Positions 40,650-54,800 of a stretch of 64,000 nucleotides of DNA are shown here, in pieces. Origin of the DNA: Prevotella sp. (GTDB lineage Bacteria > Bacteroidota > Bacteroidia > Bacteroidales > Bacteroidaceae); assembly GCA_022486815.1 (NCBI GenBank), contig JAKVJW010000001.1, positions 1 to 64,000 on the forward strand. The letters are read 5' to 3'. The stretch's first letter is position 1. Every line of letters starts with the position of its first letter. The notes under the pieces were generated by a model, which ran no database searches, was not told where the DNA came from, and saw only the letters and a list, made by a program, of their open reading frames with translations. The translations under genes and the position numbers were made by a program.

Positions 40650-40938
40650 TATATCTAATTTTAAGCAACTTATACCATTTAGCCTTTAAGCTATACCTGA
40701 TCCGTAATTACCACGCAGTGGTAATAAGGTTTCCATACAGTGGTAATGAGGTTTCCACGCATTGGTAATGGGGTTTCCACACTATGGTAATGAGGTTTCC
40801 AATACTGTGGTAATGTAGTTTCCAATACTATGGTAATGTAGTTTCCAATACTATGGTAATGTAGTTTCCAATACTATGGTAATGTGGTTACCAATACTGT
40901 GGTAATGTAGTTTCCAATACTGTGGTAATGAGGTTTCC
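40650..40938 (+). repeat. composite repeat: leader (40650-40671) plus about 10 tandem 22-23 bp units (40707-40938)
   Basis: Units gtttccaatactatggtaatgta, gtttccacactatggtaatgag, attaccacgcagtggtaataag; leader tatatctaattttaagcaactt resembles the 15.0 and 58.9 kb copies. Confidence 0.9.
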
Positions 40939-41058
40939 GGATACATAACCAATAATGAATAGAACCATAATATCTATAGCCAATAGCAAAGTTAGCACTT
41001 TCTTCTTAAAACCCAAGTTCAGTCGTTTGATTACTATCAATATAATACCAGAAAGCAT

Positions 41059-41094
41059 ATTGTGCGCGAACACACAATATTTGATATAAGTCAA
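41059..41094 (+). promoter_or_regulatory. tandem palindromic regulatory module: ATTGTGCGCGAACACACAAT plus FNR-box-like TTGATATAAGTCAA
   Basis: Same module, same spacing, upstream of the second microprotein locus at 54037-54073. Confidence 0.65.
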
Positions 41095-41155
41095 GAAAGA
41101 ACAATAGAACCCATCATTTTACCTGAAAACTCTTGTCTGGAACATGAAATCACAC

Positions 41156-41163
41156 TATCTTTG
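41156..41163 (+). promoter_or_regulatory. -7 box TATCTTTG of microprotein locus 1 (TTG at 41133, 20 bp spacer)
   Basis: TATCTTTGCAGTGTC; shares CTTTGCAGTGTC with locus 2. Confidence 0.7.
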
Positions 41164-41447
41164 CAGTGTCGTTAAGAAACAAGAATACAAAAGATAAATA
41201 GGTATTCGTAAGGTAATAAAGGATTGCGATAAAGGATAATTGATGTTGATTAAGGTAGTAAGAGAGATTGTATAGAAGGACGACAAGTATTAGTTAAAGG
41301 TAAAGAAAGATTGTAAAGTAAGGTGATGGTATTAGTAAGGTAAAAGATAAAGGTTGTGAGTAAGGTAACAGGGGCGTCGGAGAGACGGTCGATAGAAAAA
41401 GGTAAAAAGATAAAAGAAATCTCAATAGGTTAAAAAGGAACAGGATA

Positions 41448-41525
41448 ATGAGTATGACAGTAATGATTGCCTGGGTTGCAGCTATAGCAACTACAGGCTA
41501 TGTGATGGAGAACTTCAATAAATAG
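41448..41525 (+). CDS. single-TM microprotein, 25 aa (MSMTVMIAWVAAIATTGYVMENFNK)
   Basis: Preceded by purine-rich AACAGGATA, followed by a terminator; architecture duplicated at 54293. Confidence 0.55.
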   Translation: MSMTVMIAWVAAIATTGYVMENFNK

Positions 41526-41573
41526 TTCAGACCATCCTTAAGTTATGAAAAATTTGAGAACAAAGAATAGGTA

Positions 41574-41599
41574 ACGCGCGACTCAGGCCGCGCGTTTTT
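41574..41599 (+). terminator. terminator of microprotein locus 1
   Basis: ACGCGCG-actcaggc-CGCGCGTTTTT. Confidence 0.85.
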
Positions 41600-54036: not shown

Positions 54037-54073
54037 TTTTGTGTGCGAACACAAAACGATTGATACATATCAA
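54037..54073 (+). promoter_or_regulatory. tandem palindromic regulatory module: TTTTGTGTGCGAACACAAAA (perfect 8 bp arms) plus TTGATACATATCAA (FNR consensus)
   Basis: TTGAT-N4-ATCAA exact; same arrangement as 41059-41094. Confidence 0.7.
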
Positions 54074-54133: not shown

Positions 54134-54141
54134 TAACTTTG
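54134..54141 (+). promoter_or_regulatory. -7 box TAACTTTG of microprotein locus 2
   Basis: TAACTTTGCAGTGTC; shares CTTTGCAGTGTC with locus 1. Confidence 0.7.
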
Positions 54142-54292
54142 CAGTGTCATCAAAAGAAAGTAAGTTTGAAGGATAAGTTCAAGAACGAACAATCAAGGAT
54201 GACAAGGTAAAGGATACAAAACAGGATAAGTATAAAATAAAACACGAGGGCCGAAAGGTCTGAAGTAAAAGGTAAAAAGAAAGGAAAAAATT

Positions 54293-54379
54293 ATGTTGAC
54301 AAGTGGAAGTATGATGTGCTATGCAATACTATTCTTCGTATTTGCGGGTGTAATCAGTTCAACTATCGAACGTCGATAA
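54293..54379 (+). CDS. single-TM microprotein, 28 aa (MLTSGSMMCYAILFFVFAGVISSTIERR)
   Basis: Purine-rich AAGGAAAAAA upstream, terminator downstream, paralogous architecture to 41448-41525. Confidence 0.55.
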   Translation: MLTSGSMMCYAILFFVFAGVISSTIERR

Positions 54380-54460: not shown

Positions 54461-54638
54461 TAATTGACAACTGTCAATTTATAATTTTCAAGAAAACTAT
54501 TTCCTTATCTATTTTACAAATTTGTTTATGAAACAATTTTATAGAAGGAAAAAGCCGGAATATTCAGATTAAAAACAGATACATTTTTAATCTGAAAGAC
54601 AGATTAGTTATTACAAATCTGTCTTTCTAATGTAAATA

Positions 54639-54800
54639 TTACTCTTGTGGAGTAAACTGATCTTTTCCAACACCACAAAGTGGGCAGACCCAATCATCTG
54701 GAAGATCTTTAAAAGCCGTTCCAGGATCTATACCATTATCAGGATCACCTTCTGCAGGATCATAAACATATCCACATACATCACATACATACTTTTCCAT
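54639..54800 (-). CDS. rubredoxin, 53 aa
   Basis: [53 protein letters not shown]: two CxxCG knuckles; absent from the supplied ORF track. Confidence 0.96.

Follow-up and report, generated by a model that had tools for sequence, protein, structure and literature searches.

A candidate bifunctional small-RNA gene of Prevotella from a scattered family of many copies under a common operator

What kind of gene occupies positions 41059-41599 of the window, the whole 64,000-nucleotide stretch of Prevotella sp. DNA analysed here? The initial annotation described a small transcription unit made of a palindrome, an FNR-like box, a promoter, a leader, a 25-aa ORF and a terminator, and each of these parts was found in place. 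Judged from sequence, this locus (locus 1) is an unannotated small gene, and we put at about 0.6 the probability that it is a bifunctional small-RNA gene, one copy of an RNA-gene family that is dispersed in Prevotella (sensu lato) and shares an operator. It lies upstream of a gene for a 215-aa protein without a Pfam match, which is followed by rpoN, and it has the following features.

41061-41074, plus strand: LacI-type palindrome core TGTGCGCGAACACA, centred at about -102, near-invariant in the operator alignment, with a central CG
41081-41094, plus strand: Crp/Fnr-type box TTGATATAAGTCAA, centred at about -82, from pattern search and alignment
41156-41163, plus strand: -7 promoter element TATCTTTG, 61 bp downstream of the box
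about 41170-41447, plus strand: unstructured, repeat-rich leader with AAGGTA six times, GATTG three times and GGTATTAG/TATTAG
41448-41525, plus strand: ORF MSMTVMIAWVAAIATTGYVMENFNK for a 25-aa microprotein with a single transmembrane (TM) stretch, stop codon TAG, with orthologues in genomes G030, G209 and G316
41540-41569, plus strand: conserved 3' RNA element AAGTTATGAAAAATTTGAGAACAAAGAATA, located after the stop codon and ahead of the terminator; retained in orthologues whether or not they have the ORF
41574-41599, plus strand: intrinsic terminator, stem 41574-41595, T-run to 41599

Transcription would be expected to start at about 41168-41172. The symmetry of the palindrome is imperfect beyond its core, the box departs from the perfect dyad at a single base (GTCAA in place of ATCAA), and a small hairpin lies inside the leader at about 41373-41391. 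Just upstream of the locus, positions 40708-40961 hold about ten imperfect tandem repeats of 22-23 bp (TGGTAATGTAGTTTCCAATACTA); similar units are found downstream of the C12 microprotein locus (L111), and the array looks like a dispersed intergenic repeat.

The same architecture had been said to recur at 54.0-54.46 kb, and the full set of elements was indeed found there, at 54.04-54.46 kb (locus 2).

54040-54053, plus strand: palindrome core TGTGTGCGAACACA, from pattern search
54060-54073, plus strand: Crp/Fnr-type box TTGATACATATCAA, a perfect dyad
54134-54141, plus strand: promoter TAACTTTG, 60 bp after the box
54150-54292, plus strand: leader with a GGGCCGAAAGGUCU hairpin
54293-54379, plus strand: 28-aa single-TM microprotein MLTSGSMMCYAILFFVFAGVISSTIERR, related to peptides in L252, L254, L229 and L089
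54416-54458, plus strand: intrinsic terminator

A 53-aa rubredoxin-like ORF (about 54638-54799, minus strand) converges on locus 2 from just downstream, placing an electron-transfer gene next to an RNA with a Crp/Fnr-type box.

We searched the rest of the genome with a profile of the promoter region. Clear members are the two window loci (C1:41060 and C1:54039), the non-coding members C4:81160 and C17:24714, and C5:58884 (L110), where the same type of operator drives a small protein of about 120 aa with an apparent signal peptide (MKKMILLAVALLSITTATFAANDEKE...). A weaker-scoring member, C12:17710 (L111), has its palindrome near the promoter and encodes a third TM peptide, MVTLISAAVVAIMIAQAIKVNDKINLSNK. 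At C2:47786 (L114), a Crp/Fnr-type box and promoter lead into a very short RNA with a terminator, and the gene downstream reads by eye as trxB (thioredoxin reductase).

Could the plan of locus 1 have arisen by chance? In most copies the module runs from the palindrome TGTG-N2-CG-N2-CACA through about 6 bp to the box TTGAYNNNNRTCAA and then, after 60-61 bp, to the promoter TAnnTTTG; in others, such as those on C17 and C5, the palindrome lies near the promoter. By alignment the family's start is TTTGCATCGTCAAAAG, of which TTTGCAGTGTC in the window is a variant. Searching 250 congeneric genomes with GTGTNCGNACACA-N6-TTGAYANNNRTCAA, at most three mismatches being allowed, returned the bipartite operator at about 85 places in 66 genomes, compared with about five for the reversed pattern, which is an imperfect control for a palindrome; the fixed spacing to the promoter is independent support. 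That spacing was 60 or 61 in all 47 modules of a first set (about 45-61 allowed) and in 191 of the 228 modules of a larger set (57-65 allowed). Sixty of the operator places were inspected, and most consisted of the operator, a promoter TACCTTTGCATCGTCAAAAG, an RNA of 150-500 nt with recurring short motifs and a terminator. Four matches of the first pattern search (L006, L007, L009 and L014) lie inside coding regions and were set aside as apparent chance matches. The operator enrichment, the fixed spacing, the leader repeats and the excess of TM ORFs over shuffles (32 of 185 transcripts, compared with 0-2) together argue that the plan is not due to chance, as had been proposed from its recurrence in the window.

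A search for the module across related genomes had also been suggested, and the 66 genomes with the operator are only part of its outcome. Each of the 120 genomes of the genus that were searched had a match to the promoter profile at E <= 0.01, and in nearly every one the best match was 1e-9 or better; apart from the window's own, these genomes are at least 95% complete. At E <= 1e-6 it matched 105 of 151 genomes of the family, in 16 of 22 genera, and full-length copies of the module occur both genus-wide and in other genera of the family.

Which regulators might act on such a promoter? The module has the features of a Crp/Fnr-type promoter, namely a TTGAT-N4-ATCAA-like dyad whose spacing to the promoter is constant and in helical phase, and a box centre at about -82 is in phase with the class I positions of E. 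coli CRP. The even palindrome TGTG-N2-CG-N2-CACA, for its part, has the central CG that is the rule for LacI-family operators (PMC4052901). Candidates for both are few, because the genome encodes three LacI-family proteins, two HTH_Crp_2 proteins (L427 and L428) and one RRM-1 protein (L429), counts from an assembly that is 85% complete and from which further LacI, Crp/Fnr or RRM proteins could be missing. A Crp/Fnr-type protein very probably binds the box. The earlier reading of a Crp/Fnr site is supported as to type, with only two such proteins in the genome, although the locus 1 box departs from the consensus by one base. A LacI-type partner at the palindrome is probable as well, and given the central CG a second regulatory signal through this palindrome is therefore likely. 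Anaerobic, FNR-like control of the module is plausible; the signal may be oxygen, nitrosative stress or carbon. The carbon regulator Cur (BT4338) was considered as owner of the box and rejected, its motif, wwwTATGTTnTAnAACATAwww (PMC3878776, PMC6989115), being different from TTGAYNNNNRTCAA.

We then turn to the RNA. Most transcripts of the family are non-coding, about 32 of 185 encoding a TM peptide, and the motifs TTTAGGTT, AGATTG, AAGGTAA and GGATAACA are common to them. TTTAGGTT, AGATTGTT, AAGGTAAA, GGTATTAG and GGATAACA occur 10 to 100 times as often as in dinucleotide shuffles (for example, TTTAGGTT 172 vs. 9.6, AGATTGTT 155 vs. 3.8 and GGATAACA 66 vs. 0.6), and they occur in peptide leaders and non-coding members alike. 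Of the 32 peptide leaders 29 contain AGATTG, as do 99 of the 105 non-coding RNAs, and the locus 1 leader has six copies of AAGGTA compared with 1.1 in its shuffles. The fold of this leader is near random (z = -1.2), no more structured than shuffles, and both the sequence and the length of the leaders (150 to 280 nt) drift fast even among orthologues; the locus 1 leader could be a cis leader. Searches of Rfam, at the gathering cut-off on the window and at E <= 5 on 12 loci, returned nothing credible; none of the searches for tRNA or tmRNA, plasmids and phages gave a match. Exact matches to the core motif TTTAGGTTTTTAGTTATT were confined to the window's genus among the 22 family genera sampled. 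Its longer form was matched in public genomes that include Segatella copri, S. baroniae, Hallella mizrahii, Hoylesella timonensis and Leyella stercorea, with a box and promoter upstream in 71 of 80 matches, and one non-coding member is closely conserved across Segatella copri (L287), Hallella, Hoylesella and Leyella.

Is the peptide a real product? ORFs of 22-32 aa that combine a hydrophobic stretch with a purine-rich ribosome site were found in 32 of 185 distinct transcripts, the range in 20 shuffles being 0-2. The encoded peptides share a short N-terminus, a single TM stretch and a tail such as ENTIEKK, IESGLRK or MENFNK. In close pairs or groups of peptides, pS was well above pN and dN/dS was mostly 0.06-0.30 (seven groups); across seven species within a single genus, differences at codon positions 3, 1 and 2 numbered 134, 53 and 22. 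For the locus 1 orthologues in G030 (MSITLMIAWVAAIATTGYMMGGNRKS), G209 and G316, dN/dS was about 0.29 over codons 2-20; this range was used, and a full-length pairwise value of 0.7 between the window and L048 set aside, since the two ORFs differ in length. These substitution patterns indicate that the peptides, that of locus 1 included, are under purifying selection, as would be expected of the small protein of a dual-function RNA. With all its elements present and its peptide under selection, the description of locus 1 as a complete unit for a 25-aa single-TM peptide holds up well. Because of the TM-ORF excess and the purifying selection, translation of the ORF is strongly supported, and we consider it highly likely that the peptide is made. 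Pfam and NCBIfam searches with the peptides found nothing, and a profile search against PDB chains gave matches at chance level alone, the best being Psb30 (E = 0.25), and none to CydX or another oxidase subunit. At another box-promoter locus (L422, G263:C48), a TM peptide (MVTLMIVLSVVAIIATQTFNDNDQLNLSK) has another small ORF, a basic one, after it, and the two may form a two-gene unit.

The same genomic site was compared among the 30 best matches of the 215-aa gene, G209 being found separately. Module and peptide both lie upstream of the 215-aa gene (and of rpoN where reached) in G000, G316 and G030, and also in G209. In five others (G622, G069, G066, G575 and G631) the module and the 3' element (GTTATGAAAAATTTGGGAA) are present without a comparable TM ORF. 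The remaining matches among the best 30 lack the module within 1.5 kb, including G569, the nearest relative found (78% identity in the 215-aa gene). Conservation in related strains is partial: the ORF is kept in G030, G209 and G316, but most relatives have no module at this site. Several of the peptide-free orthologues (L436, L443, L448, L453 and L454) carry a GCCTGTGAGCAG...CTGCTTCGGGC hairpin in the place of the ORF. The 3' element, which in some copies can be read as a tiny ORF, was treated as RNA, as it recurs in RNAs without a TM ORF. Because peptide-free orthologous sites keep the RNA and its 3' element, we read the RNA, not the peptide alone, as a functional product; these sites and the non-coding members bear on whether the RNA may regulate targets independently of the protein. 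The name 'microprotein locus' therefore suits the selected peptide but not the family, most of whose members are non-coding and some of whose orthologous sites have no peptide.

These results can be set against simpler accounts. If locus 1 were a plain microprotein gene, the 25-aa TM peptide would be its sole product and the leader a long 5' UTR that tunes translation or stability. Purifying selection on the peptide, the purine-rich ribosome sites ahead of its start and the drift of leader sequence among orthologues all agree with this, but we regard it as unlikely, given that most members of the family have the same promoter and repeats and no ORF, and that five orthologous loci without the ORF retain the RNA and the 3' element. 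The converse emphasis, an RNA sponge whose repeats titrate the single RRM-1 protein (RbpB-like) as CsrB titrates CsrA, with the peptide a late add-on, is possible by analogy, though we hold it only tentatively. It would account for an unstructured RNA with recurring short motifs in a genome with one RRM protein, and in B. thetaiotaomicron, RbpB binds to small RNAs of multi-copy families at their single-stranded regions (PMC11697453); the motif make-up, however, varies among members. Our confidence in the sponge overlaps with that in the preferred reading, because a sponge is one form of action in trans. A more elaborate version, in which dispersed, co-regulated RNAs specific to Prevotella titrate the RRM protein through their repeats, some copies release TM microproteins, and Crp/Fnr and LacI logic sets both RNA-protein occupancy and membrane activity, strikes us as doubtful.

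Two further accounts start from the peptide itself. It might be a small subunit of one respiratory enzyme, FNR-induced, such as the CydX-like subunit of cytochrome bd; its size, its single TM stretch with a charged tail and the Crp/Fnr-type box would suit such a role. Against it speak the presence of several divergent paralogues within a single genome (at 41.4 kb, 54.3 kb and C12:17.7 kb), the absence of any oxidase gene among the neighbours of both window loci and the PDB-chain result. Neither a sequence match to CydX nor an association with cydAB was seen, the neighbours of locus 1 being the gene for the 215-aa protein and rpoN, and we find the account improbable. The short hydrophobic peptide, long leader and several copies per genome would also fit a type I toxin-antitoxin system, in which a membrane toxin is held down by antisense RNA or the long leader. 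Here the conservation of peptide-free copies and a shared operator of the metabolic-regulator type make the case improbable as well.

The bifunctional reading starts from what the sequence shows, namely a promoter of fixed layout, a mostly single-stranded RNA assembled from recurring motifs, a terminator and, in some copies, a TM peptide under selection. One of the two Crp/Fnr proteins of the genome would act as activator from about -82, a position whose helical phase permits class I activation. Beside this site, or in other copies close to the promoter, one of the three LacI-family proteins would bind and contribute a signal from a sugar or metabolite, as CytR does alongside CRP. The RNA would act in trans by pairing with mRNA start regions, or its repeats would hold the single RRM protein; we think a function in trans an even bet or slightly better. 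The peptide would sit in the inner membrane and, as a small modulator, may adjust a membrane enzyme or a transporter, with a division of labour between RNA and peptide as in AzuCR, SgrS and VcdRP.

How does the family compare with known systems? In AzuCR (E. coli), SgrS and VcdRP (V. cholerae), too, a short RNA doubles as the message for a small protein. Control of AzuCR and VcdRP is by the Crp-family regulator CRP, which represses both; VcdP is 29 aa long, and the enzyme on which AzuC acts, GlpD, is membrane-associated (PMC8672173). The Prevotella family differs from all three in being multi-copy, with a shared bipartite operator, leader repeats and orthologues with and without the ORF, and no homology to dual-function RNAs was seen in Rfam. 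At CytR-CRP promoters the operator lies between two CRP sites. They resemble the Prevotella module in pairing a LacI-family operator with a Crp-family site at constant spacing, but belong to another phylum, and the module is placed at about -102/-82, not between two such sites.

A parallel in organisation is with the RbpB-bound RNAs FopS and GibS of Bacteroides, a genus of the same taxonomic order, which are also multi-copy, are largely single-stranded, end in an intrinsic terminator and occur with an RRM-1 protein. FopS, compared here by description, is non-coding with a conserved 5' seed (PMC11697453), whereas the present family has no credible Rfam match and its TTTAGGTTTTTAGTTATT core is exact only in the window's genus. 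By analogy, the family seems to work like a dual-function RNA (AzuCR, VcdRP) and to be organised like a multi-copy family (FopS). SnoA/HcpR of B. thetaiotaomicron is another case of a regulatory RNA tied to a Crp/Fnr-family regulator; in the available part of the report, snoA is a single locus antisense to the hcp promoter, its level is unaffected by hcpR deletion, and neither repeats nor a peptide subset, as found in the Prevotella family, is mentioned (PMC13370916).

Prevotella and Segatella are dominant bacteria of gut and rumen whose RNA regulation is barely known, and an RNA family defined by its promoter, with a peptide-coding subset, offers a concrete and testable regulon. Its microproteins have been overlooked and are absent from the family libraries searched, and a single locus with and without the ORF provides a natural series on how bifunctional RNAs arise or decay. 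A small RNA of the same group, SrcF of Segatella copri, is reportedly controlled by carbohydrates (El Mouali et al. 2024). S. copri has a close non-coding member of the family (L287), and SrcF may itself be a member.
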